A stretch of DNA of 64,000 nucleotides from Mytilus galloprovincialis (lineage: Eukaryota; Mollusca; Bivalvia; Mytilida; Mytilidae): assembly GCF_965363235.1 (NCBI RefSeq), contig NC_134841.1, positions 32,951,440 to 33,015,439 on the forward strand. The letters are read 5' to 3'. The notes below the pieces were generated by a model that saw only the letters and a list, made by a program, of their open reading frames with translations, was not told the DNA's origin and did not search any database. Position numbers and translations under genes: made by a program. Below are positions 3,814-62,430 of the stretch, in pieces. Positions within the stretch are counted from its first letter, which is position 1. Every line of letters starts with the position of its first letter.

Positions 3814-5247
3814 CAGGGGCGTAGCTAGGTATTCATTCAACTGTAGGCACAATCGGCAGGGGGTCTGGGGGGCGCTCAAGGCCCCCAGCAGGTCCAGGGC
3901 AGAGCCCTGGTATGGGGTTGAGGAAAACTGATTTCAGCGTTTTGGCTGCAAAAATTTTATGCACAAAATATATTAAATTTTCAGGTTATTTAATCATGAT
4001 AATTATAATATACATGATGAAAAGTTCGAAGAATTATGAATAATTTACCATAACATCTAAATGGTGAATTAAATAACGCAGTACAATTGGAAAATCAAAT
4101 ATTGAAAAAAATAATTTACAATATGTACTGCCCAGCATAGATCCGCCTTTCCCTCTAATTAAGCAGTACACCCTGTTTGGTATTTTCAAATCTATTCCGT
4201 TAATATATGATCGATATATACGTTTAACTTAATTGATAGTACATATTGACTATCCTTCATTAAAAAAAATAGGCACGTGCACGTAAACACTGATATTACT
4301 ATATAATAACACTATCCTTTTGGCTAGAAAGACACCAACCATCAATCTTTTGATTCTTAAACCTTCACCCTAGCCACACAAACAAATACACACATAGTCG
4401 ATGCCTAATGCAAAAGTTCTGTTCTGTTCATACTAACGTAACAAAATTCAAGAAATTCGTATTTCTTTATATCCCGCTCTACTGTAAAATCCCACCTGCT
4501 TAGAAATTTGAATATTTGTGGTCATTACACGTAGATCTGAGAGTACTCAAAACTACTGGAAGCTAATTGATAGATTTATTTTTAAACATCCAGTGTAAAA
4601 TATTTATGCAAGTTCAGAACAAAAAAAAAACAAATTGATTATTTACAATAAACACAACAGGGAACTTAGTCCTGTAATAGGTGTTGTACAGGACGAAGGT
4701 CTGGAAATTTGAAAATGCCATGCATTGGAAAATGAGGGATTATTGGATAGGAGCAGAAACAGACCAACTACGAACTCCTCAAAGAGTGGCATTCTCTCTA
4801 CAACTAGGCATAAGATTAAATGTCCCCATTCTGACCAGACGTGACTACGTATTTATACATCCAGCACAGCCAAACGGACGACCAACATTGACAAGTCGGG
4901 TGAAGACAAAGTGGAAAGCTAGTTGAAAACTAACAAATAATTAAAAATTCGTGTGAGGTTCATTCAAGTTTTTGTTGATAGAAGTGAAATGATCTGAACC
5001 AAAGTTCTAGTTTATAGTTTCTATGTAAGGTACAAACATAAAAACATGCAATTCTATCCAATATTTCATTCACTAAGGACGAGAGACTAGTGTACACATG
5101 ACATTTGATAATTAAAGTTGTGACAACTTCACTGGAGTTCATCTACATATACCGTTGTTTATTATTTTTTTTAATGAAAAAAAAATATTTGTGAAAAAAT
5201 TATGTGTAGGCACGTGCCTAAAGTGCCTAACGGCAGCTACGCCCCTG
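3814..5247. mobile_element. hAT-type DNA transposon, non-autonomous (5-bp TSD GGTGC)
   Basis: The ends are CAGGGGCGTAGCT and its exact complement AGCTACGCCCCTG. The element is flanked on both sides by GGTGC (3809-3813 and 5248-5252). It is 1434 bp long. Near the left end is a GC-rich block (GGGGGGCGCTCAAGGCCCCC) like that in the element at 11986-13198. An 81-codon ORF inside (4681-4926) shows nothing I can assign to a transposase. CAGGGGCGTAGC-type ends with 5-bp duplications fit the hAT5-like lineage of hAT elements; that placement is inference. Confidence 0.8.
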
Positions 5248-5779
5248 GGTGCTGTATTACATATTTGTTCTCCGTTTGTTTTTTTGTACATTAATAAGCT
5301 TTTTGCTTTCTCGTTTGAATTGTTTTACATTTAGTGTGATTTCATTTCTTTTATAGCTGACTATTCGGTTTAGGCTTTGTTCATTGTTGAAGGCCGTACG
5401 GTGACCTATATCTGTTGATTTTTTTTATGATTGCCAATATCAACAATCAAAACTCGATGATATATATAAGTTCGTACAGTACACGTAAGTTGCACGTTAC
5501 AAGTGACAGACATGCTGTGTTACATATTTGTTTTCCGGGGTTTTTTTTTGTACATTAATAAGCCTTTTGCTTTCTCGTTTGAATTGTTTTACATTTTGTG
5601 TGATTTCGGGTCTTTTATAGCTGTCTATTCGGTATAGGCTTTGTTCATTGTTGAAGACCGTACGGTGACCTATATCTGTTGATTTTTTTTTATGATTGCC
5701 AATATCAACAATCAAAACTCGATGATATATATAAGTTCGTACAGTACACGTAAGTTGCACGTTGCAAGTGACAGACATG
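5248..5779 (+). repeat. PLE-tail repeat, tandemly duplicated
   Basis: Two units of about 262-267 bp (from about 5251 to 5512 and from 5513 to 5779) share the block from TTACATATTTGTT through TTGAAG.CCGTACGGTGACC to GTAAGTTGCACGTT.CAAGTGACAGACATG. The first part of each unit is the PLE-tail family; the last 90 bp are unit-specific. Confidence 0.8.
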
Positions 5780-10389: not shown

Positions 10390-11835
10390 ATGAAGTCTCT
10401 TTAGCATCACTAAAAGGAAGAGATATTGTTCTGCCATCAGTGGAGATGTCTATGGAGCATGCCTACAAGGAAGAGATATTGTTCTGCCATCAGTGGAGAA
10501 GTCTCTGGAGCATGACTACAAGGAAGAGATATTGTTCTGCCATCAGTATAGAAGTCTCTGGAGCATGACTACAAGGAAGAGATATTGTTCTGCCATCAGT
10601 GGAGATGTCTATGGAGCATGACTACAAGGAAGAGATATTGTTCTGCCATCAGTGGAGATGTCTCTGGAGCATGACTACAAGGAAGAGATATTGTTCTGCC
10701 ATCAGTGGAAAAGTCTCTGGAGCATGACTACAAGGAAGAGATATTGTTCTGCCATCAGTGGAGATGTCTATGGAGCATGACTACAAGGAAGAGATATTGT
10801 AATTCCATCAGTGGAGAAGTCTCTGGAGCATGCCTACAAGGAAGAGATATTGTTCTGCCATCAGTGGAGATGTCTATGGAGCATGACTACAAGGAAGAGA
10901 TATTGTTCTTCCATCAGTGGAGATGTCTATGGAGCATGACTACAAGGAAGAGATATTGTTCTGCCATCAGTGGAGAAGTCTCTGGAGCATGACTACAAGG
11001 AAGAGATATTGTTCTGCCATCAGTGGAGAAGTCTCTGGAGCATGACTACAAGGAAGAGATATTGTTCTGCCATCAGTGGAGATGTCTATGGAGCATGACT
11101 ACAAGGAAGAGATATTGTTCTGCCATCAGTGGAGAAGTCTCTGGAGCATGACTACAAGGAAGAGATATTGTAATTCCATCAGTGGAGAAGTCTCTGGAGC
11201 ATGACTACAAGGAAGAGATATTGTTCTGCCATCAGTGGAGAAGTCTATGGAGCATGACTACAAGGAAGAGATATTGTTCTGCCATCAGTGGAGAAGTCTC
11301 TGGAGCAGGACTACAAGGAAGAGATATTGTAATTTCATCAGTGGAGAAGTCTCTGGAGCATGACTACAAGGAAGAGATATTGTTCTGCCATCAGTGGAGA
11401 AATCTATGGAGCATGACTACAAGGAAGAGATATTGTTCTGCCATCAGTGGAGAAGTCTCTGGAGCAGGACTACAAGGAAGAGATATTGTTCTGCCATCAG
11501 TGGAGAAGTCTCTGGAGCATGACTACAAGGAAGAGATATTGTTCTGCCATCAGTGGAGAAGTCTCTGGAGCAGGACTACAAGGAAGAGATATTGTTCTGC
11601 CATCAGAGGAGAAGTCTCTGGAGCATGACTACAAGGAAGAGATATTGTTCTGCCATCAGTGGAGAAGTCTCTGGAGCATGACTACAAGGAAGAGATATTG
11701 TTCTGCCATCAGTGGAGATGTCTCTGGAGCATGACTACAAGGAAGAGATATTGTTCTGCCATCAGTGGAGAAGTCTCTAGAGCATGACTACAAGGAAGAG
11801 ATATTGTAATTCCATCAGTGGAGATGTCTACTGAT
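10390..11835 (+). repeat. 53-bp minisatellite, about 27 units
   Basis: Tandem units of 53 bp of the form GACTACAAGGAAGAGATATT..GTTCTGCCATCAGTGGAGAA..GTCTCTGGAGCAT. Variants fall at fixed positions (AAGTCTCTGG versus ATGTCTATGG; TTCTGCC versus AATTCC; CATGAC versus CAGGAC). Units are very alike, so the array is young or homogenised. All three forward frames are open over long runs because the unit has few stops and 53 is not a multiple of three. No start, splice or codon evidence supports a protein. Confidence 0.95.
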
Positions 11836-13950: not shown

Positions 13951-15185
13951 GATCTGTGATCGCCTCTGTAAAACTTATTTACAACTTTGAAGACTATATC
14001 AGATAAGAGCTTGACCTTGAATAGACACCTGACAATTGATGAAGAATGTTGACCTTCAGATGTCTTTTGGTTATTTGTGCTGTTGGGTTACTGTTTCAAT
14101 TGATATACCCTACAACCCCTTTTACTCATACTAATCTGATATGGACAAAGTTTGAAACTGAACGAAATTTATGAACGTGGAAGTTTCAGTACCTTTCGGT
14201 CAGTCTTTTAAGCATTAGGTCATTGTTAAACTACTTCATTTATATACTGATGAAAAATGAGGTATTGATGACACCACTGCCTGAAAAGTTACACATATTT
14301 TGCCTCATGGTGTGCATATAATAACTCATTACCCCACCACCCCCCCCCCCCCCACCCCCCTTTTTTCACATTTTGCACCTGTAGCAAGCCATTTTATCTA
14401 AACCAATTGTAATTAGTTGTTCTTTTATCAAAAGGCCGAAGTGAATATCATGATCAATTTTTCAAAAGACAATTAATACACATATTTACCGAAACTAAAT
14501 GCTTATCATTATAGTTGTTGTAAATAAATTTGAAATTACAGTAGGAATAAAATAGCGCCACAAATTGTGGCACAAATTTTGCCAATAACATGTTTTGGTT
14601 TTTTATTTCAAAGAGAAGCGAACAGAGCTTGCTGCATAGTTAGGTTTAGTGTATATAGTTGTTTCTATAGATCATCGATGGAGGAGCATAAAATCAATAG
14701 AATATCAAACGGTTTTTATAAAAATTATACAGTACACGTATTTAAGAGCACATAACTCTATGATCAGTTAATATACTTTTTCCACAGTTGAATATTCATA
14801 TTTCATATATAAACAAACCTACTAAAGATTTAACATGGAATAACAGATAATATTAACTGTTCAGCACCCATTTACATAGATCAGATTGACATTATGCCTG
14901 TATTTATAATAATTATATTAGTGTGCAGTGACTAAATATCTCGGTTATAATAATCATTCTGTGAAGTGAATTGGATGATGACAGTTTTGCATCTTTCTAT
15001 TCTAAAAGTACAAAACATGACAACAATCATATCACTCACACATATCGGACTTAATATTTAAATGTCTTCTACCCGACTAACAATATATGTTCCTATAAAC
15101 AAACGACACAACTAACCAGATTCTCCATCAGAATCTGATGTTCAGCAGTTGTTGTTTTTGATGTTCATAAGTGTTTTTCGTTTTT
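13951..15185. other. No gene seen
   Basis: AT-rich sequence with a C-rich low-complexity run at about 14332-14360. Short ORFs here (for example 14567-14755) have no supporting splice sites or recognisable motifs. Confidence 0.5.
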
Positions 15186-15189
15186 TATA

Positions 15190-15385
15190 TAGATTAGACC
15201 ACTGGTTTTCCCGTTTTAATGATTTTACACTAGTCATTTTTGGGCCCTTTATAGCTTGCTGTTTGGTGTGAGCCAAGGGTCTGTGTTGAAGACCGTACTT
15301 TGAGAGCAATAATGATTTACTTTTACAAATTGTGACTTAGATAGAGAGTTGTCTCATTGGCACTCATACCACATCTTTTATATCG
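15190..15385 (+). repeat. PLE-tail-related repeat, diverged subfamily
   Basis: Ends GAGTTGTCTCATTGGCACTC and CATACCACATCTTTTA, the shared 3' terminus of the family, and carries TGTTGAAGACCGTACTTTGA. It is the inverse of 7465-7635. Confidence 0.75.
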
Positions 15386-41864: not shown

Positions 41865-43938
41865 ATACGACCGCAAAAATTGAAAATTTTTTGGTCGTAT
41901 ATTGGTATGATGTTGGCGTCGTCGTCTGCATCGTCGTCGTCCGAATACTTTTAGTTTTCGCACTCTAACTTTAGTAAAAGTGAATAGAAATCTATGCAAT
42001 TTTAACACAAGGTTTATGACCACAAAAGGAAGGTTGGGATCGATTTTGGGAGTTTTGGTCTCAATATTTTTGGAATTAGGGGCCAAAAAGGGCCCAAATA
42101 AGCATTTTCTTGGTTTTCGCACTATAACTTTAGTTTAAGTAAATAGAAATCTATGCAATTTTAACACAAGGTTTATGACCACAAAAGGAAGGTTGGGATT
42201 GATTTTGGGATGTTTGGTTCCAACAGTTAAGGAATTAGGGGCCAAAAAAGGGCCCAAATAAGCATTATTCTTGGTTTTCGCACAATAACTTTAGTATAAG
42301 TAAAAAGAATTCAATGAAATGTAAACACAAGGTTTATGACCACAAAAGGAAGGTTGGGATTGATTTTGGGAGTTGAGGTCCCAACAGTTTAGGAATTAGG
42401 GGCCAAAAACGGGCCCAAATAAGCATTATTCTTGGTTTTCGCACCATAACTTTAGTATAAGGGACGACATCAAAAGATCAATGTAAGATAAAAAACTTAA
42501 TTCAAATAGTTTGGGGGTGGGGGGTTGAACGGCTTCAAGATTTGGTTATCCGACATTGATTTTTACATATATCCCTATGGGTCAATCAATTTTTCCCAAA
42601 TTAAGTTAAGAAGGGGGGGGGGGGTCAGTGAAAAAACTATGTGAATTAAGTTTTTTATCCTTCATTGAACTTTTGATGTCGTCCCTAAGTAAATAGAAAT
42701 CTATGAAATTTAAACACAAGGTTTATGACCATAAAAGGAAGGTTGGGTTTGATTTTGTGAGTTTTGGTCCCAACAGTTTAGGAATAAGGGGCCCAAAGGG
42801 TCCAAAATTGAACTTTGTTTGATTTCATCAAAAATTGAATAATTGGGGTTCTTTGATATACCGAATCTAACTGTGTATGTAGATTCTTAAGTTTTGGTCC
42901 CGTTTTCAAATTGGTCTACATTAAGGTCCAAAGGGTCCAAAATTAAACTTAGTTTGATTTTAACAAAAAATGAATTCTTGGGCTTTTTTGATATGCTGAA
43001 TCTAAACATGTACTTAGATTTTTTATTATGGACCCAGTTTTCAAGTTGGTTCAAATCAGGATCCAAAATTATTATATTAAGTATAGTGCAATAGCAAGAA
43101 ATTTTCAATTGCATAGTATTCATCAATAGCAAGAAATCTTCAATTGCACAGTATTGTGCAATAGCAAGAAATTTTGAATTGCACAGTATTGCGCAATAGC
43201 AAGAAATCTTCAATTGCACAGTATTGTGCAATAGCAAATATTTTCAATTGCACAGTATTGCGCAATAGCAAGAAATATCTAATTGCACAATATTGTTCAA
43301 TAGCAAGACATTTTCAATTGGAGTTATCTTTCTTTTTTCAGAATTGTAGTTGAATCAACTTACTACCAACCAATCTTTACCATTCAGTGATAACAAGCAC
43401 TTTATTTTACATTTTAATATTTTATGATATATTTAAGAGTAGTTATTGTTGCAAACTCCATTAGAAATTTGAATTGATATCAGTTTTGGAAAAAGGGAAA
43501 GGGGGATGTGAAAAAAAAATGGGGGGGGGGGGTTAAATTTTTCTCATTTCAGATTTCATAAATAAAAAGAAAATTTCTTCAAACATTTTTTTGAGAGGAT
43601 TAATATTTAACAGCATAGTGAATTGCTCAGAGGCAAAAAAAAAAAAAAAATTAAGTTCATTAGACCACATTCATTCTGTGTCAGAAACCTATGCTGTGTC
43701 AACTATTTAATTTTAGATTTAAATAAGTTTGAAGAAGAAATCTTTAATTAAGAAATCTTTAATTGATTTGTAAAATCTTGACATTTGTTTTGTGTAAAAA
43801 ACCCATATAATGTCAAAAATTTGATCACAATCCAAATTCAGAGCTGTATCACGCTTGAATGTTTTGTCCATACTTGCCCCAACTGTTCAGGGTTCCACCT
43901 CTGCGGTCGTATAAAGCTGTGCCCTATGGAGCACCTGG
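41865..43938 (+). mobile_element. Helentron/HINE-like element, copy 2
   Basis: Same ends as 36995-39231: ATACGACCGCA at the left tip, TGCGGTCGTAT at 43902-43912, a weaker stem-loop, then CACCTGG. The left flank ends TTTTT and the right flank begins TTG, as in copy 1. The interior differs by an inserted 225-bp MITE, by more units of a 37-bp repeat (about six here, three in copy 1) and by the lack of a duplication found in copy 1 at 38340-38640. Confidence 0.7.
42461..42685. mobile_element. 225-bp PIF/Harbinger-like MITE (3-bp TSD TAA)
   Basis: The ends GGGACGACATCAAAAG and CTTTTGATGTCGTCCC are perfect inverted repeats, and the pairing extends further with gaps. TAA lies on both sides, and the host units elsewhere read AGTATAAGTAAAT without the insert. 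A TAA duplication with GGG-starting ends fits PIF/Harbinger MITEs. The interior has G runs and no ORF. Confidence 0.8.
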
Positions 43939-44154
43939 TTGAGATATAAGCCAAAAACCGCATTTTACCCCTATGTTCTATTGTTAGCCATGTTGGCCAT
44001 GTTTTTTGGGGAAACAAAAAATAAATCACAAACTTTATTCTAGACACCCTAAGGATCATTCAGCTTAAGTGTGGTTGGAATTGGTTCAGTGGTTTCAGAA
44101 AAGAAGATTATTTAAAGTTAGAAATATGATATTACCCATTAATGGGCGTCAAGT

Positions 44155-44462
44155 TGGTTACCTATTCCCTATTCCCTATTCGTTACCTATTCCCTATTCC
44201 CTATTCGTTGCCTATTCGTTACCCATTCCCTATTCCCTATTCGTTACCTATTCGTTACCTATTCGTTACCTATTCCCTATTCCCTATTCCCTATTCGTTA
44301 CCTATTCGTTACCTATTCCCTATTCCCTATTCGTTACCTATTCGTTACCTATTCCCTATTCCCTATTCGTTGCCTATTCGTTACCTATTCCCTATTCCCT
44401 ATTCGTTACCTATTCGTTACCTATTCCCTATTCCCTATTCGTTACCTATTCGTTACTTATTT
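44155..44462 (+). repeat. Left terminal satellite of the foldback element
   Basis: Iterations of CCTATTCCCTATTC and GTTACCTATTC words. The inverse array at the other end (51114-51475) is longer. Long periodic ORFs (PIPYSLPIRYLF) in both strands' frames are by-products. Confidence 0.9.
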
Positions 44463-45344
44463 GATTTTTAATATCCTTCCCCCTTTTTAATTATGGCATG
44501 GAATAGTTTAATATGGCTGCCGTTACCATGAAAACGGCACAATTGTGAAAAAAATGAGCTTTTGGTTTTTGGTGAACTGTTTGGATATGCTTCAACTCAG
44601 AATCATCATATTTTAAAACAATGTAGGTGTCCACTATATACAGGTGTTGGATGATTTTGGCGATCATTGGAACTACTATGTTGCCATGGAAGCTACACCA
44701 AAATTTTCAAAATTCTAAAAATGCTCAAAACTTCATGAAACTTCACAGTAATGATGAGCAACATTGGAGTTGGAATTTCCAAAATAGGTCTTGTTACCAT
44801 GGAAACAATGCAAAAAGGTCAAAAATTTCAAAAATAAGAATTTTCCGCAAACTGGATGAAACTTTACAGGAATGGTAACTGGCATAGGCAGAGTTGGATT
44901 TTGAAGTTAGAATTTTCAAAATGGCCGCCGTAACCATGGAAACAGCAAAAATATCAAAAATTCAAAATGTTCAAACTTAATGAAACTTTGCAAAAATGTT
45001 ACTAGACATCTGTAGATGCTCTCTTTGACTTTGGAATTGTCAAAATGGCTGCCGCTCACCTGGTAATAGGGGGAAGGGGTGCCTTCCGTTATTGCTAGCA
45101 ATTACAAATCTAGTTGTTAATAGTCTTACATATGGTAATAGTTCTGAATTGGTTGAGGTAAAATGATCTTTTTATGACCTATTTATATGTGTTTGTGCTC
45201 AACCGATCCTTTTACTTCATGTTCGATACGCATTTGTTCCTTACTTGTTTTTTATACGTTCTACCTTTTTAACTGCTTTATGTCCGTATGTTTGAAGATG
45301 GATCTTGGTTCGACGGGATGAAATCACCGTGTTAGCGCTTGCGT

Positions 45345-45665
45345 AAAAACGAAGATGTGGTATGATTGCCAATGAGACAACACTCCACATTAGACCAAAA
45401 TGACACAGAAATTATCAACTATAGTTCACTGTACGGCCTTCAACAATGAGCATAGCCCAAACCGTGTAGTCACCTATAAAAGGCCCAGACATGACAACCT
45501 CATACAATTCAAACAACAAAACTGACGGCCGTATTTCATATACAAAAAAATAAACGGAAATATGTAACACAAAAACAAACGATAACTACTTAATTTCAGG
45601 CTCTTGTCTAGGGACAGGCACATACTTACATAATGTGGTAGTCTACTAAGAGTTAAACATGTAAG
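45345..45665 (-). repeat. PLE-tail copy in the left foldback arm
   Basis: Runs from GAAGATGTGGTATGATTGCC to the AGAGTTAAACATGTAAGCAG segment. Its mirror copy is at 49905-50228. The left copy has a small extra segment near 45645 that the right copy lacks. Confidence 0.85.
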
Positions 45666-45829
45666 CAGGGTGTACATCGTTTCGGAGCATGCTATTACCT
45701 TGTTTAATTCGTTCCATCACTCGCTTATAATTCGCTTATAATACGTGTATCTTACGTTGCACCTTTTAAAACATGATTTTCAATTGTTTTGTTGTCTCTG
45801 GTGGAAGATTTGGGCTCTTAGAGGTGATA

Positions 45830-47030
45830 TAACTCTATAAGTGCATTTGTATCCGTTCCAGCGGTCGGATAATACCCTGTTAAATATTCGTTACTAATTC
45901 GCTTTTAAAAAGTTTGTTGTACGTTGCACCTTTTAGAAAAGGATTTCCAATTGTGTTCATATCTCTGGTGGTTATAATGTGTTCTTATAGATGAAATACC
46001 CCTATAAGCGCATATGTACTCGTTCCAGCGATCGGTTAATACCCTGTTACCTATTCACTTATAGTACGTTTGTTGTACGTTGCACCTTTTAGAAAAGGAT
46101 TTTCAATTAGATTCATATCTCTGGTGGTAACAATGTGTTCTTAGAGATGAAATGACCCCATTAGAGCGCATGTACCCGTTCCAGCGCTCGGTAAATAACC
46201 TGTTACCTATTCGTTACTTATTCGCTTTTAATGCGCGGGGTATACGGTGCACCTTGTAATAAATCGTTTTTTAATTGTGTTCAGGTCTCTGGTGGTAAGA
46301 ATATGTTCTTAGAGATGAAATTACCCTATTAGCGCGCATGTACCCGTTCCAGCGCTCGGCTAATACCCTGTTACCTATTCGTTACCTATTCGCTTATAAT
46401 ACATTTTTTTATACGTTTCACCTGTTAGAAAAGGATTTTCAATTATGTCCATGTCTCAGGTGGTAACAATGTGTTCTTAGAGATGAAATGACCCCATAAG
46501 AGCGCATGTACCCGTTCCAGCGCTCGGTAAATAACCTGTTACCTATTCGTTACCTATTCGCTTTTAATGCGCGGGGTATACGCTGCAACTTGAAATAAAT
46601 CGTGTTTTAATTGTTTTCATGTCTGGTGGTAACAATGTGTTCTTAGAGATGAAATGACCCCATTAGAGCGCATGTACCCGTTCCAGCGCTCGGTAAATAA
46701 CCTGTTACCTATTCGTTACTTATTCGCTTTTAATGCGCGGGGTATACGGTGCACCTTGAAATAAATCGTTTTTTAATTGTGTTCAGGTCTCTGGTGGTAA
46801 GAATGTGTTCTTAGAGATGAAATTACCCTATTAGCGCGCATGTACCCGTTCCAGCGCTCGGTTAATACCCTGTTACCTATTCGTTACCTATTCGTTACCT
46901 TTTCGCTTATAATACATTTTTTATACGTTTCACCTGTTAGAAAAGGATTTTCAATCATGTCCATGTCTCAGGTGGTAACAATGTGTTCTTAGAGATGAAA
47001 TTACCCTATTAGCGCTCATGTACCCGTTCC
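45830..47030 (-). repeat. Left inner array of the foldback, about 7 units of 160-175 bp
   Basis: Reverse-sense units marked by CGTTCCAGCGCTCGG, at about 45855, 46027, 46188, 46358, 46518, 46680 and 46850. Each also carries GTTACCTATTCG words and TTCTTAGAGATGAAAT.ACCC. Confidence 0.9.
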
Positions 47031-49860
47031 ACCAGAGACATGAACACAATTAAAAAACGATTTATTTCAAGGTGCAACGTATACCTCGTGCATAAAAGCA
47101 AATAAGGAACGAATAAGAAGCAGGGTAATAACTGAGCGCTGGATCGAGTACATACGCGCTAATAGGGGTATTTCATCTAAAAGAACACATTATTACCACC
47201 AGAGATATGAACTGAATTAAAAATCCTTTTCTAAAAGATGCAACGTACAACAAACGTAATATAAGTGAATAGGTAACGAATAGGTAACAGGGTATTTATC
47301 GAGCGCTGGAACGGGTACATGCACGCTAATAGGGTCATTTCATCTCTAAGAACACATTGTTACCACCAGAGACATGGAGACAATTAAAAATCCTTTTCTA
47401 AAAGGTGCAACATACAACAAAAGTATTATAAGTGAATAGGTAACGAATAGGTAACGAATAGGTAACAGGGTATTTACCGAGCGCTGGAACGGGTACATGC
47501 GCGCTAATAGGGTAATTTCATCTCTAAGAACACATTGTTACCACAAGAGACATGGAGACAATTAAAAATCCTTTTCTAAAAGGGGCAACATACAACAAAC
47601 GTATTATAAGTGAATAGGTAACGAATAGGTAACGAATAGGTAACAGGGTATTAACCGAGCGCTGAAACGGGTACATGCGCGCTAATAGGGTAATTTCATC
47701 TCTAAGAACACATTCTTACCACCAGAGACCTGAACACAATTAAAAAACGATTTATTTCAAGGTGCACCGTATACCCCGCGCATTAAAAGCGAATAAGTAA
47801 CGAATGGGTAACAGGTTATTTACCGAGCGCTGGAACGGGTACATGCGCGCTAATAGGGTCATTTCATCTCTAAGGACACATTCTTACCACCAGAGACCTG
47901 AACACAATTAAAAAACGATTTATTTCAAGGTGCACCGTATACCCCGCGCATTAAAAGCGAATAAGTAACGAATAGGTAACAGGTTATTTACCGAGCGCTG
48001 GAACGGGTACATGCGCTCAAATGGGGTCATTTCATCTCTAAGAACACACTGTTACCACCAGACATGAACACAATTAAAAAACGATTTATTTCAAGGTGCA
48101 CCGTATACTCGCGCATTAAAAGCGAATAGGTAACGAATAGGTAACAGGTTATTTACCGAGCGCTGGAACGGGTACATGCGCTCTAATGGGGTCATTTCAT
48201 CTCTAGGAACACATTGTTACCACCAGACATGAACACAATTAAAACACGATTTATTTCAAGTTGCAGCGTATACCCCGCTCATTAAAAGCGAATAGGTAAC
48301 GAATAGGTAACAGGTTATTTACCGAGCGCTGGAACGGGTACATGCGCTCTAATGGGGTCATTTCATCTCTAAGAACACATTGTTACCGTCTGAGACCTGG
48401 ACATAATTGAAAATCCTTTTCTAACAGGTGAAACGTATAAAAAAATGTATTATAAGCGAATAGGTAACGAATAGGTAACGAATAGGTAACAGGGTATTAA
48501 CCGAGCGCTGGAACGGGTACATGCGCGCTAATAGGGTAATTTTATCTCTAAGAACACATTGTTACCACCAGACATGAACACAATTAAAAAACGATTTATT
48601 TCAAGGTGCACCGTATACCCCGCGCATTAAAAGCGAATAAGTAACGAATAGGTAACAGGTTATTTACCGAGCGCTGGAACGGGTACATGCGCTCTAATGG
48701 GGTCATTCATCTCTAAGAACACATTGTTACCACCAGACATGAACACAATTAAAACACGATTTATTTCAAGTTGCAGCGTATACCCCGCGCATTAAAAGCG
48801 AATAGGTAACGAATAGGTAACAAGATTATTTACCGAGCACTGGAACGGGTACATGAGCGCTAATAGGGTAATTTCATCTCTAAGAACACATTGTTACCAC
48901 CTGAGACATGGATATAATTGAAAATCCTTTTCTAACAGGTGAAACGTATACAAAAATGTATTATAAGCGAATAGGGAACGAATAGGTAACGAATAGGTAA
49001 CAGGGTATTAACCGAGCGCTGGAACGGGTACATGCGCGCTAATAGGGTCATTTCATCTCTAAGAACACATTCTTACCACCAGAGACCTGAACACAATTAA
49101 AAAACGATTTATTTCAAGGTGCACCGTATACCCCGCGCATTAAAAGCGAATAGGTAACGAATAGGTAACAGGTTATTTACCGAGCGCTGGAACGGGTACA
49201 TGCGCTCTAATGGGGTCATTTCATCTCTAAGAACACATTGTTACCGTCTGAGACCTGGACATAATTGAAAATCCTTTTCTAACAGGTGCAACGTATAAAA
49301 AAATGTATTATAAGCGAATAGGTAACGAATAGGTAACGAATAGGTAACAGGGTATTAACCGAGCGCTGGAACGGGTACATGCGCGCTAATAGGGTAATTT
49401 CATCTCTAAGAACACATTCTTACCACCAGAGACCTGAACACAATTAAAAAACGATTTATTTCAAGGTGCACCGTATACCCCGCGCATTAAAAGCGAATAA
49501 GTAACGAATAGGTAACAGGTTATTTACCGAGCGCTGGAACGGGTACATGCGCTCTAATGGGGTCATTTCATCTCTAAGAACACATTGTTACCACCAGAGA
49601 TATGAATTTAATTGAAAATCCTTTTCTAAAAGGTGCAACGTACAACAAACGTACTATAAGTGAATAGGTAACGAATAGGTAACGAATAGGTAACGAATAG
49701 GTAACAGGGTATTAACCGATCGCTGGAACGAGTACATATGCGCTTATAGGGGTATTTCATCTATAAGAACACATTATAACCACCAGAGATATGAACACAA
49801 TTGGAAATCCTTTTCTAAAAGGTGCAACGTACAACAAACTTTTTAAAAGCGAATTAGTAA
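47031..49860 (+). repeat. Right inner array of the foldback, about 16 units
   Basis: Forward-sense units of about 165-180 bp marked by GAGCGCTGGAACGGGTACAT. Two subtypes alternate irregularly: one with AACGATTTATTTCAAGGTGC..CCCCGCGCATTAAAAG, the other with AAAATCCTTTTCTAA.AGGTG..TGTATTATAAG. The subtypes carry different numbers of the 11-bp word GAATAGGTAAC. Confidence 0.9.
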
Positions 49861-49904
49861 GCGAGTGATGGAAAGAATAAACAAGGTAATAGCATGCTCC
49901 GAAA

Positions 49905-50228
49905 CGATGTACACCCTGCTTACATGTTTAACTCTACCACATTATGTAAGTATGTGCCTGTCCCTAGACAAGAGCCTGAAATTAAGTAGTTATCGTTTGT
50001 TTTTGTGTTACATATTTCCGTTTATTTTTTTGTATATGAAATACGGCCGTCAGTTTTGTTGTTTGAATTGTATGAGGTTGTCATGTCTGGGCCTTTTATA
50101 GGTGACCACACGGTTTGGGCTATGCTCATTGTTGAAGGCCGTACAGTGAACTATAGTTGATAATTTCTGTGTCATTTTGGTCTAATGTGGAGTGTTGTCT
50201 CATTGGCAATCATACCACATCTTCGTTT
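49905..50228 (+). repeat. PLE-tail copy in the right foldback arm
   Basis: Mirror of 45345-45665: ACACCCTGCTTACATGTTTA .. TGTTGAAGGCCGTACAGTGA .. GGCAATCATACCACATCTTC. Confidence 0.85.
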
Positions 50229-51495
50229 TTACGCAAGCGCTAACACGGTGATTTCATCCCGTCGAACCAAGATCCATCTTCAAACATACGGACATAAAGC
50301 AGTTAAAAGGTAGAACGTATAAAAAACAAGTAAGGAACAAATGCGTATCGAACATGAAGTAAAAGGATCGGTTGAGCACAAACACATATAAATAGGTCAT
50401 AAAAAGATCATTTTACCTCAACCAATTCAGAACTATTACCATATGTAAGACTATTAACAACTAGATTTGTAACTGCTAGCAATAACGGAAGGCACCCCTT
50501 CCCCCTATTACCAGGTGAGCGGCAGCCATTTTGACAATTCCAAAGTCAAAGAGAGCATCTACAGATGTCTAGTAACATTTTTGCAAAGTTTCATTAAGTT
50601 TGAACATTTTGAATTTTTGATATTTTTGCTGTTTCCATGGTTACGGCGGCCATTTTGAAAATTCTAACTTCAAAATCCAACTCTGCCTATGCCAGTTACC
50701 ATTCCTGTAAAGTTTCATCCAGTTTGCGGAAAATTCTTATTTTTGAAATTTTTGACCTTTTTGCATTGTTTCCATGGTAACAAGACCTATTTTGGAAATT
50801 CCAACTCCAATGTTGCTCATCATTACTGTGAAGTTTCATGAAGTTTTGAGCATTTTTAGAATTTTGAAAATTTTGGTGTAGTTTCCATGGCAACATAGTA
50901 GTTCCAATGATCGCCAAAATCATCCAACACCTGTATATAGTGGGCACCTACATTGTTTTAAAATATGATGATTCTGAGTTGAAGCATATCCAAACAGTTC
51001 ACCAAAAACCAAAAGCTCATTTTTTTCACAATTGTGCCGTTTCCATGGTAACGGCAGCCATATTAAACTATTCCATGCCATAATTAAAAAGGGGGAAGGA
51101 TATTAAAAATCAAATAAGTAACGAATAGGTAACGAATAGGGAATAGGGAATAGGTAACGAATAGGTAACGAATAGGGAATAGGGAATAGGTAACGAATAG
51201 GCAACGAATAGGGAATAGGGAATAGGTAACGAATAGGTAACGAATAGGGAATAGGGAATAGGTAACGAATAGGTAACGAATAGGGAATAGGGAATAGGTA
51301 ACGAATAGGCAACGAATAGGGAATAGGGAATAGGTAACGAATAGGTAACGAATAGGGAATAGGGAATAGGTAACGAATAGGTAACGAATAGGGAATAGGG
51401 AATAAGTAACGAATAGGCAACGAATAGGGAATAGGGAATAGGTAACGAATAGGGAATAGGGAATAGGTAACCAACTTGACGCCCATTACCCATTA

Positions 51496-53886
51496 GTAAA
51501 TTACACGATATTTTCAAAGAGTGTGACACCATCTCATTCTTCAGCCCACTGTATGAATATTCTCGTATAATTACAGCTTTTTTCCACCATACGCTGCTCC
51601 CGCGTATCGACAAACCTGAGGATCATAAACGTCATTTTTTGAAAATTAAATATATTAGCAGAGGTATTGATGATTTTATCAACTTATCTAGTATATTTAA
51701 TGACTCTACCGTATAAAACTTTATACCTCCCTATTTTGATACTATAGAACCACCTATAATTTCATACACATACAAAAAAACAAGCAGAAGTTTAATTTTT
51801 AATTATACATCGGTTACATCAGACGTGAATATAAATAGTAATACTCCCTTAACTTGAAACTGTGAATCGTCTAAGTTTAAATATGTTCCATATGGCCATG
51901 TTATTACAGGGGACCTCAATATCATCCAGGACAGAGAGGTTAAAAACTTTTTGAAAAAAGGGCCAAAATATCGTCCTCCATCTAAAATAGATTGGAAAGA
52001 GTGTCGTCAAGTCACCAAAGATGCTCTTTCCCAGTGGCGGATCCAGGGGGGGGGGGGGGGGGGTTCCGGGGGTGCGCACCCCCCTTTATTTTTGCCGATC
52101 AATGCATTTGTATAGGGACATATGTTTTGCACCCCCCCCCCTTTGCCCTGGGTTACCTGGGTTAGCACCCCCCTTTCGAAAATTCCTGCATCCGCCCCTG
52201 TTTCCTCGTTTTGTAAAAAATGGTGTAAACGTGAAAAATCTGATAAAAAATCTCTTGATTCTTATTTAAATAAATGTATGAATGTGGTAGATAAGAGAAT
52301 ATCACATTTTGAAAATAATTTAGAAGTAAATAATAGAGTACACAATACACCAATATCCAGAATAAGAAATAAACTTCAAATACTTTCAAAGCGGTTTGTC
52401 GACAAAGCAGCCAACAATGTGGTGGTGGTATGCCGTAAATACTACACGGACGTTCTTAAGAATGAAATTTTAAATTCATCTACATTCAAGTTCATCCTCT
52501 CCACAGAGAGTCATATAGTTAACAAGCATATCACAACCACATCAAAGCTTAAGGCTTCTTCTAAACATTTGAAGGTCCCTACTATGTATTGGCTACCTAA
52601 CTTACACAAAAAACCATTTAAATATCGTTTAATCTCGGCCTCTAGTAAGTGTTCTACAACTAATCTTTCAGTGCTCTTAACTAGTTCATTAACTACTATT
52701 AAAGAGCTTATCATAAACTATTGTAATAAAATATATGAACATAGTGGTATAAACCATTTTTGGAGGGTAAAAAATTCTTTGGATGTTTTAGATAAATTAC
52801 GTGCTTTTGATGGTCCTTTTGATTCTGTTAATAGTTTTGATTTTTCTACTCTTTACACTACACTGCCACACTATCTTATTGAACAAAAGTTTTCCTATTT
52901 AATTAAATGGTCGTTTGGTAAAGCTGCATGCTAGATATACTTACTGGAGGTGTGATGAGATGATTGAAACTGTTAATTTTCTCCTTGATAATATTTATGT
53001 ACGTTTCGGCAACAAAGTTAATCGACAGGTTGTAGGTATCCCCATGGGCACTAATTGTGCCCCTTTAATAGCAGACTTGTTTTTGTACTGTTACGAATCA
53101 CAGTTCATGACTAAACTCAGTAAAGACCCGTCGAAATTGCATTTAATTGATAAATTCAATAACACTTACCGTTATCTTGATGATATATTTTCGTTAAATA
53201 ATCAAGAATTTTCTCAATATACTGCGGAAATTTACCCCAAGGAACTTACTTTAAATAAATCAAATTTATTCGGTAATAACTGTCCTTTCCTGGATTTAGA
53301 TATTTCGGCTTTAAACGGGAAACTCCACACTAAAATTTACGACAAAAGAGACGATTTTTCGTTCCCTATTGTTAATTTTCCATTTTTAGATGATGATGTT
53401 CCTTTGGCACCATCTTACAGTGTTTATATTTCACAACTTGTTCTCTATGCCCGTGTCTGTTGTGACGTTTTTAATTTTAACGAGCGCAACCTATGTATTA
53501 CTGGTAAATTATTAAACCAGGGACATCGTTACCATAAATTACTTAAAACTTTTACTGAATTTTTCCACAGATATAAAGATTTGGTTTTGAAGTTTGGTTG
53601 TACCTGTAGAAAACTTTTTTCAAACGGGATAGCACATCCTCATTTTTACGGAAATGTTGTTAACCGTGCCGGGAAATTTAGAAATGATCCATGTAAACTT
53701 GTCGCTCCTTTAAATAAACTTATTCTAAAAGGTTACTTATTCAACACTGTAATTAGATCATTGAATATTGTTTTTATTGGTATAAATATTGATTTTGTTA
53801 TCAGTAAATTAAAAGCTAACTTAATATTACTAGTATGTTATATGCATATACATATTCATGGATCTACAATCTGTCGATACCTGTAA
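51496..53886 (+). pseudogene. Penelope-like reverse transcriptase, broken
   Basis: Coding-like sequence begins right at the foldback's duplication (LPISKLHDIFKECDTISFF) and continues with GDLNII..FLKKGPKYRPPS, YWLPNLHKKPFKYRLIS (the fingers motif of the Penelope type), FDFSTLYTTLPH, GIPMGTNCAPLIADLFLYCY, the catalytic YRYLDDIF and FLDLDI..LHTKIYDKRDDF. The longest open stretches are 52122-52934 and 52915-53886. The reading is interrupted a few times, so this copy is dead. The enzyme would copy the element's RNA at a nicked target. Placement in Penelope-like elements rests on the motif order; no GIY-YIG endonuclease is recognised in the part present. Confidence 0.75.
52032..52200. mobile_element. 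169-bp hAT-type MITE (5-bp TSD TTTCC)
   Basis: Ends CAGTGGCGGATCCAGG and CCTGCATCCGCCCCTG, flanked by TTTCC on both sides (52027-52031 and 52201-52205). It has a G-rich left half and C-rich right half that can pair. It is inserted in the reverse-transcriptase coding region of the Penelope-like element. Confidence 0.85.
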
Positions 53887-56895: not shown

Positions 56896-58152
56896 ATGTC
56901 TGACGAATCTGATTCAGAAATCGAGAGTAATATGGATAAACGTGAAACAGTCGAGAAAAATAATGAAGACTCTGCATTAAATACAGCAAAGCAGGGACAA
57001 GGTGATATTGAAAGTGCATTTAATAACAACGTACGAGACGACATGGCTAGACAGAGAAATACAGTAGAGATGGAAAGGAATTTTGAAGGTGAACCAGGTG
57101 TTTCGTATTTTGAAAATAATAGCGTTCATGAACGAAAATGGGGAAATGCACCAAGATTTTGCCGTGAACAGTTGCCGATTGCTGGACATCCTGCTACAAT
57201 TCGTCCAGATGCTTATAGTGGATCAGATGACTGGGAAGAATATTTTTCGCATTTTCAAGATTGTGCAGAACTAGGCAGATGGAGTATGGAAGATAGAGTA
57301 TTGACACTTGTTGCAAGTTTAAAGGGCCCTGCGAGAACTTTTTATATGAGCCTTCCTACACATGAACGCCGACCTTATAGTATTCTTGTCCGACGTTTAG
57401 AAGAAAGATTCGGAAGTGCCCGTCAACAAAACAGATGGTTATCTCGTTTTGAAATGAGAAAGCGAAATTCCGGTGAAACAGTTGCTGCTCTCGGTGATGA
57501 CCTCCGCCAGATTGTACAAAAGGCTTATTGTAATTTAGATTCATTGGCACAAGAAGTGTTGGCGCTTAATCAGTTATACAAGTCGATTCCTATAGAAATG
57601 AAATGTCGATGCGTAGATCGAGAATGTAAAACGGTCGCTGACGCTGTAGATATAATTGAAAGATATGAGGCTCTTTTAGGGGAGTCAAGTGATAAAAAGA
57701 AAACTAGTGTCCGCTCAGTTTCTTATGAAAATTGTAGTGAAAATAAATTAGATATGGAATTGCAAAATAATGGTGACCCAAATGTCAGATTAATTTCCCA
57801 ACAGCCAAATAGTGACAAAACCATTCAAATGCTTTTAAGTAGAATGGATAAGTTAGAAAATCAGATTCGGAATACGACAACCGATCCAACTTTAGATTTG
57901 GCCGCAACAATTACCAAAACGGGAGTAATACACAGAATCAACGGACCTGCTTCATTTGTGACTCGCCTGATCATTTTTATAGACAATGTTCTATGTATAA
58001 TGGTCATGAATTTAGGGAGAATAAACCCCCGAATTCACAGAATTTTAGAAATTTCAGACCAAATACAACTATGGATTGGGTTCAGGGAGACAACCTTCCG
58101 TTTATTCAATAGGTCGGGAGTTGACAGTTACAGAAGTCGTATTTTATGTTAA
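56896..58152 (+). pseudogene. Gag-like region of the LTR element (fossil)
   Basis: Capsid-type segment of the Ty3/Gypsy kind: YSGSDDWEEYFSHFQDCAEL, LVASLKGPARTFYMSLP, LVRRLEERFGSARQQ and AVDIIERYEALLGE in order, with an acidic N-terminal part. The far C-terminal part lacks a clear zinc knuckle. Family placement rests on the capsid-region pattern. Treated as part of an incomplete element. Confidence 0.8.
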
Positions 58153-62149: not shown

Positions 62150-62430
62150 AAAAATAAGGTGATGTGATATGATTGTCAAAGTTCAAAAAATAAATGGATT
62201 TAAGCAATTATTATAGTCGTCGGCTATAAAAGGTCCCGACATGAAAAATAAAAATCAATACCTTTCGAATTTAACTGACGGCCTATTTCATAACAAAACA
62301 ATTTACGAAAAATATATATGACAGACATGAACCAACGACAACCACTAAACTACGAGCTCTTGACTTGAAACAGGTACATAAAGAATTTGGCAGGGTTAAA
62401 AATGTCTGTGTGCGCTCATTTCTCCCCAAA
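62150..62430 (-). repeat. PLE-tail repeat copy, diverged
   Basis: GTGATGTGATATGATTGTCA .. CGGCTATAAAAGGTCCCGAC .. AACGACAACCACTAAACTAC .. GGCAGGGTTAAAAATGT. Confidence 0.75.

Follow-up and report, generated by a model that had tools for sequence, protein, structure and literature searches.

A numerous foldback family with satellite-built inverted arms and 9-bp target duplications in the mussel Mytilus galloprovincialis

Drosophila FB elements have long inverted repeats made of tandem units and are flanked by 9-bp target-site duplications (TSDs). Here we describe a family of the same design in the mussel Mytilus galloprovincialis, one member of which occupies positions 44142-51486 of the stretch of DNA analysed, the window (64,000 nt of contig NC_134841.1, positions 32,951,440-33,015,439 of assembly GCF_965363235.1; coordinates below are window positions). 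Likened by description, the mussel family differs from Drosophila FB in its nested arrays (7- and 11-base units, ~134-bp units in four copies of the GAC subtype, and ~168-bp units), in a median distance of 11.4 kb between paired ends on the four contigs with a complete end list and in that no coding copy was found. Within the foldback class, as far as the sections of PMC4079207 devoted to it go, some families have no known transposase. Among these is Tetris of Drosophila virilis, which is likewise non-autonomous, with internal tandem repeats tied to a satellite, TSDs of 8-10 bp and an autonomous partner that was not found; three structurally complete copies are reported there, in contrast to at least 118 end pairs and a satellite-filled centre in the mussel family. 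The Tm1 Mutator/Foldback family of root-knot nematodes, in the part of PMC3169594 that treats it, is also alike by description, its inverted repeats being composite and variable in length, its TSDs mostly of 9 bp and many of its copies non-autonomous, but one of its copies codes for a transposase of the Phantom type, and none was found here. Galileo, according to the passages of PMC3688188 on its ends, shares long, internally repetitive terminal inverted repeats (TIRs) with extra transposase binding sites, and differs in belonging to the P superfamily, with a P-type THAP transposase. The bivalve Helentron/HINE and pearl elements, including mussel MgE, are dispersed and carry satellite-like arrays as well (~160-bp repeats in pearl), but, in the portion of PMC7492417 that describes them, the array runs in one orientation (oyster set) and subterminal inverted repeats with a 3' palindrome stand in place of long mirror arms.

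The main text of a survey of bivalve transposons (PMC10294476), in the version available, contains neither “foldback” nor “Rehavkus”. Searches of the open-licence literature in PubMed Central (PMC), which leaves most subscription journals and Repbase outside, for bivalve or Mytilus foldback elements, Mytilus satellites and palindromic bivalve elements resembling Mutator-like elements (MULEs) returned no title or abstract describing such a mussel element. This agrees with an earlier note on the window, to which the element appeared undescribed. The family is new, of a known foldback kind, large and numerous.

The window element is 7,345 bp long; its arms are made of satellites, inverted copies of ATGGGCGTCAAGTTGG form its ends, and TACCCATTA is duplicated exactly at its flanks. 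Its features are as follows, with the evidence for each in brackets; B1-B4 and S are module names coined in this analysis, and below C1-C4 denote contigs and L-numbers the loci sampled.

44133-44141, + strand: left 9-bp target duplication, TACCCATTA (motif positions; 26 of 28 elements have a 9-bp duplication that matches in at least 8/9)
44142-44157, + strand: left terminal 16-mer, ATGGGCGTCAAGTTGG (motif position, flank reading, genome pattern count)
44161-44461, + strand: left outer array of 7- and 11-base units with 36-bp period (tandem-repeat and 11-mer mapping)
44465-45345, + strand: left arm modules B1-B2-B3 (module map)
45346-45560, + strand: left arm dispersed-repeat-like segment, S (module map, flank comparison)
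45561-45700, + strand: left arm module B4 (module map)
45730-47031, + strand: left half of the ~168-bp satellite array, units inward (repeat map, orientation map)
47029-47033, no strand: palindrome centre, with the single switch in satellite orientation (common to L013 at 97% over 400 bp)
47029-49860, - strand: right half of the ~168-bp satellite array (repeat map, orientation map)
49884-50014, - strand: right arm module B4 (module map)
50015-50229, - strand: right arm dispersed-repeat-like segment (module map)
50230-51109, - strand: right arm modules B3-B2-B1 (module map)
51113-51467, - strand: right outer array of 7- and 11-base units (tandem-repeat and 11-mer mapping)
51471-51486, - strand: right terminal 16-mer (motif position, flank reading, genome pattern count)
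51487-51495, + strand: right 9-bp target duplication, TACCCATTA (motif position)

The sequence ATGGGCGTCAAG occurs once per strand in the window, at 44142 (+) and at 51475-51486 (-), and the only two window occurrences of TACCCATTA both abut the element ends. The arms align as two inverted pairs, 44273-45269 with 50305-51301 (997 nt, 99% complementary) and 45267-45641 with 49934-50308 (375 nt, 100% complementary). The outer ~300-355 bp of each arm is a tandem array, its 7- and 11-base units recurring with a 36-bp period, and ~168-bp arrays occupy most of 45730-49860, in unequal halves of ~1.3 kb on the left and ~2.8 kb on the right. Allowing at most one mismatch, the 11-mer GTTACCTATTC has 86 matches in the window, against 1.25 expected, and 84 of them lie in the element, where all matches up to 46904 are on the + strand and all those at 47267-51471 on the - strand, so that every unit points inward. 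Three open reading frames of at least 120 aa overlap the element, all of them readings of the outer arrays, and no transposase was seen. The motif positions and the arm alignment confirm the inverted ends, flanking 9-bp duplication and satellite arms described in the earlier note, the reading frames are in keeping with its claim that the element holds no transposase, and the tandem-built inverted arms support the FB-like foldback structure that it proposed.

A tRNA search of the window found none, and an Rfam scan of 43000-53000 at gathering thresholds returned no family; segment S (45346-45560), without a tRNA or Rfam match, is labelled tentatively as resembling a short interspersed nuclear element. 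P0001 had no match in phages. Just outside the element, 43080-43320 holds a tandem array of ~7 copies of a 35-bp unit.

In the 1.385-Gb genome, the outer 299 bp gave 723 first-look candidates, 40 of which were scored and yielded 57 matches, the best 40 being 91-100% identical. Many other copies thus share the outer ~300 bp, contrary to the lack of further copies that would, according to the earlier note, have refuted its reading. The 16-base end pattern ATGGRCGTCAAGTTGG has 588 exact genome matches (291 forward and 297 reverse), compared to 9 (6 and 3) for the reversed-pattern control. End positions were listed for 387 of the 588, completely so for contigs C1-C4, with the pattern split by the preceding base. 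On these four contigs, 231 ends form 88 head-to-head (plus-then-minus) pairs within 40 kb and leave 55 ends unpaired, and neighbours within 40 kb are otherwise tail-to-tail in just 2 cases and on the same strand in 3. The pairs span 350 bp to 39.4 kb, with the median given above, and the end subtypes (GGC or GAC) agree in 35 of the 36 pairs in which both are known. At least 118 pairs were mapped in total from the 387 ends. The copies are therefore dispersed and highly variable in length, as expected of the foldback class.

Both flanks were read for 28 elements, namely 8 of a first set of 19 (the window and 18 loci) with both ends in the stretch, and 20 of 22 pairs on C1. The flanking 9-bp duplication is exact in 19 of them, matches at 8/9 in 7 and at 7/9 in 1, and is absent in 1; the first set accounts for six exact duplications, one at 8/9 and the one at 7/9, and the C1 pairs for 13 exact ones, including that of a 350-bp mini-copy, six at 8/9 and the element without any. 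When left and right flanks of the 19 larger C1 pairs were deliberately mismatched, 0 of 342 combinations reached 8/9. The 9-bp duplication noted for the window copy thus recurs, with no fewer than 8 of 9 bases matching, so that 26 of the 28 elements have one; its absence from other copies was the earlier note's second ground for refutation. Exact duplications flank elements as long as 21.2 kb (with a satellite midpoint), 16.8 kb (two) and 16.7 kb.

A related empty site is available for one copy. The 3,040-bp copy L069 sits in a repeat that is also found empty at window 15163-15351, L075 and L068, all of which cross the junction. The target reads GTTGGTTTT in L075 and L068, each time as a single copy, and the empty repeat in the window departs from this at 2 of the 9 bases, whereas L069 is flanked by GTTGGTTCT on one side and GTTGGTTTT on the other; one target copy in the paralogous empty repeats against two at L069 shows insertion with duplication. 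A fourth match (window 5508-5674, 71%), with a gap at the junction, was set aside. A query of 446 bases that joined the two flanks of the window copy had no junction-spanning match among the 40 scored of 3,502 candidates, and outside this locus all matches were to the right flank. This right flank (51487-51700) is repetitive, at least 38 further copies being 93-96% identical to it. Because all of these matches begin exactly where the target duplication does, the insertion lies at or beside one end of the repeat.

The arms are built to a common plan. In 20 of 22 sequences the left arm reads 16-mer, array A (the 7- and 11-base units), B1-B2 where present, B3, S, B4 and ~168-bp satellite, and the exceptions are short forms, namely L069, without S or B4, and L065, a single array of 350 bp. 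Seven of the ten satellite-bearing copies read end to end have the plain mirror order (the window copy, C6, L018, L019, L024, L026 and L027); the remaining three are C8 and L070, with extra blocks, and L069, a deletion form. Extra blocks are also present in the stretches L023 and L028. Four GAC copies (C8, C6, L028 and L025) have a tandem array of ~134-bp units between A and B3, for which the GAC copies L026 and L070 have no room. The satellite flips orientation exactly once, from + to -, in 19 of 21 satellite-bearing sequences, the two exceptions being L025, which is cut off by the end of its stretch, and L069, in which only the + orientation is present. Genome-wide, the best 40 of 982 candidate copies of the ~168-bp satellite fall into 23 clusters. 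All 11 of those on C1-C4 are at elements (10 inside a pair and 1 at 5.2 kb from an inward end), and of the 12 on other contigs, for which the end list is partial, 2 fall between paired ends, 3 have an inward end no more than 5 kb away and the other 7 have none listed in their vicinity. One flank of L018 resembles the arm segment S of other elements (72-76%) as well as window 62225-62341 (77%), a likeness that suggests capture of a dispersed repeat into the arm.

How the two arms of a copy relate to each other was assessed on a 590-bp arm block in 34 arms, including both arms of 14 elements; identities ignore gaps. The two arms of the window copy are 99.8% identical in this block and its left arm equals that of L024 at 100%, and GAC arms are ~8-10% away from the GGC arm of the window in raw alignments. 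In L024 and L027, which occupy different targets, the left and right arms differ within the element by 3.6% and 4.1%, respectively, and the right arms of the two are mutually 99.5% identical. Arms that are ~4% apart within an element but 99.5-100% identical to an arm of another element indicate that arm identity is a trait of the lineage and not a clock. The argument of the earlier note, which took the near-identical arms of the window copy as a sign of recent formation or movement, is therefore invalid; recent spread is suggested by the 99-100% arm identity between several separately inserted copies. The pattern is not uniform across elements, as in some, such as C8 and L026, either arm most resembles the opposite arm of the same element. 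The 400 bp round the palindrome centre are 94-97.5% identical among C8, L017, L018, L022 and L028, 90-96% among C6, L021, L023 and L070, and 97% between the window copy and L013, with the other long alignments listed at 70-82%. Judged by these alignments, at least three palindrome centres have each been inherited by two or more insertions, which indicates that the palindrome travels as a unit.

The observations thus comprise defined ends, target duplications of 9 bp at numerous insertions, an empty relative of one insertion site, arms that follow one order and centres inherited by separate insertions. We consider this a family of non-autonomous foldback DNA transposons mobilised in trans, probably by an enzyme of the Mutator superfamily, a reading to which we give a probability of roughly 0.7. 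A transposase supplied in trans would recognise the 16-base ends, probably aided by the inward-pointing GTTACCTATTC units of the arms, for which a binding role is proposed on the model of Galileo. The whole palindrome would then be excised, presumably by cut-and-paste chemistry, and inserted at a 9-bp staggered cut, whose repair would leave the 9-bp duplication. Unequal exchange or slippage would lengthen and shorten the satellite arrays, and this growth and shrinkage could yield copies as short as the 350-bp mini-form and others longer than 20 kb.

In principle, long inverted satellites might also form anew at each site, through template switching during replication or through foldback synthesis started by a break, and the 99.8% identity of the window arms would fit such rebuilding. 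A centre junction common to separate insertions largely refutes it, however, and L024 and L027 even have the same left/right asymmetry, so that we regard it as very improbable. Palindromes are known to cause errors in both assembly and sequencing, but a false inverted duplication would hardly produce 88 pairs on C1-C4, 20 C1 elements with distinct flanks, 19 of them with a duplication of 8/9 or better, or arms as unequal as the satellite halves of the window copy; we give an artefact almost no credence. Helitron-type and Helentron insertion makes no target duplication, whereas 26 of the 28 elements have one at 8/9 or better, and both ends here are the same inverted repeat. A rolling-circle satellite carrier of the Helentron/HINE (“pearl”) type, as in oysters and mussel MgE, is thus extremely unlikely as well, even though such elements do carry bivalve satellites in the account given in PMC7492417.

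Several results weigh against transposons mobilised in trans by a Mutator-type enzyme. No transposase frame was seen in any copy read. A genome profile search for transposase covered the MULE profile PF10551 and, with 150 of 324 candidates scored, yielded 140 matches, none of which lies inside the 118 mapped pairs, the nearest being 4.7 kb outside an end. All nine MULE loci read, of the 140 matches, lack the 16-mer ends at up to three mismatches, and the boundaries guessed for five of them suggest 8-bp duplications and other ends (exact at L072, L074 and L078, 7/8 at L075 and L076). Of the 28 elements, moreover, one has no duplication and one has only 7/9. The observed length may also not be the length that moved, given nested insertions and arrays that may grow once inserted, and the midpoints of some long pairs (L114, L115 and L118) hold sequence foreign to the family.

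As for the remaining MULE loci, the best boundary guess at L077 has a 9-bp duplication, matching at 8/9, and inverted ends that are weak, and no boundaries were found at L068, L071 and L073. The proteins of the nine loci showed no similarity to 22 element sequences (tblastn, E≤1). FLYWCH and MULE domains occur together in four of the nine sampled proteins, the Phantom layout also described for Tm1 (PMC3169594); none of the four is linked to element ends. At L068, a 459-aa open MULE frame has 3 and 5 exact GGACATTTGAGCG copies at its two sides (2510-2650 and 4960-5115); the genome thus also holds a MULE whose ends are composite, with the repeated-motif design on a small scale.

The midpoints (121 bp) of 40 of the 118 pairs were read, chosen by length (34 short pairs of up to 10.5 kb and 6 of 21-28 kb). 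A named family module is matched by 31 of them and just an unnamed part of L070 by one (L103); eight are without a match (L089, L080, L082, L109, L114, L115, L118 and L079, the last with a 22-bp match only). Searches with the L089 protein, L080 and L082 gave 48, 33 and 40 matches, respectively, among which only the query copy itself lies in a listed pair. These three midpoints were therefore rejected as element genes and taken as nested dispersed repeats. The L089 midpoint (C2:24183198-24183318) is an open frame inside a 6.6-kb copy, and that of L109 looks BEL/Pao-like by eye. Pfam searches with the midpoint frames of L089, L109, L080 and L118 returned one sub-threshold match only (L118, E 0.052). 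Among frames of at least 130 aa in 19 sequences, frames rich in outer-array peptide left out, nothing was transposase-like, although introns could hide a gene and 16 ten-kb stretches stop short of the far end in the longest copies. The frames are array or satellite readings in L019, L023 and L028 and a flank frame in L027, and copy C8 has a 130-aa frame over a second repeat segment together with overlapping low-complexity frames of up to 244 aa. A coding copy may lie among the 201 of 588 unlisted ends or the 78 of 118 unread midpoints.

Which enzyme, then, would move the family? The Mutator superfamily is the probable source, because 9 bp falls within the 8-11 bp range given for MULEs in the relevant part of PMC6446971, because of the parallel with Tm1, and because FLYWCH and MULE frames and the repeated motifs of L068 are present in the genome. 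The assignment is thus made by duplication length and analogy and not by linkage, and the enzyme would perhaps be Phantom-like. The absence of a MULE linked to the ends, among the nine loci read and the 118 mapped pairs, is what one would expect if a Rehavkus-, Merlin- or P-type transposase, or an undescribed DDE transposase, made the 9-bp cut in the same kind of transposon. Rehavkus has a PHD-finger transposase, 9-bp TSDs and a minisatellite before its 3' TIR, yet it is listed, in the passages of PMC6446971 concerned with it, only for arthropods and annelids. The foldback form has also arisen in unrelated superfamilies, such as Galileo in the P superfamily (PMC4079207 and PMC3169594, in their passages on this point). 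We regard a non-MULE enzyme as possible though unlikely. Against the 9 bp of the mussel family stand 7 bp in Galileo and 7-8 bp in the P superfamily at large. A bolder version of a family mobilised in trans, which we find doubtful, is that the members are giant transposons made almost wholly of satellites in mirror image (16-21 kb, flanked by exact duplications), moved intact by an enzyme other than a standard MULE, and that the ~168-bp satellite of this genome arose in them and is spread mainly by them.

Could the mussel family be a useful system in which to study long palindromes? Hundreds of marked ends, clear duplications and common centres make it a test bed for their survival and movement, and it also allows one to test arm arrays as extra binding sites and the spread of a satellite by a transposon. 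Long palindromes can cause breaks and inversions, and the family may therefore shape the chromosome structure of its host.

Elsewhere in the window, two overlapping frames at 52122-53886 (270 and 323 aa) look by eye like a frame-shifted reverse transcriptase, and a 418-aa frame at 56896-58152 like a retrotransposon gag, neither with a Pfam match. A 207-aa frame at 33334-33957 matches Pfam GCOM2 (PF15328, E 1.5e-07), and a 148-aa frame of repeated peptide at 11182-11628, in a locally GC-richer stretch, is probably a minisatellite.
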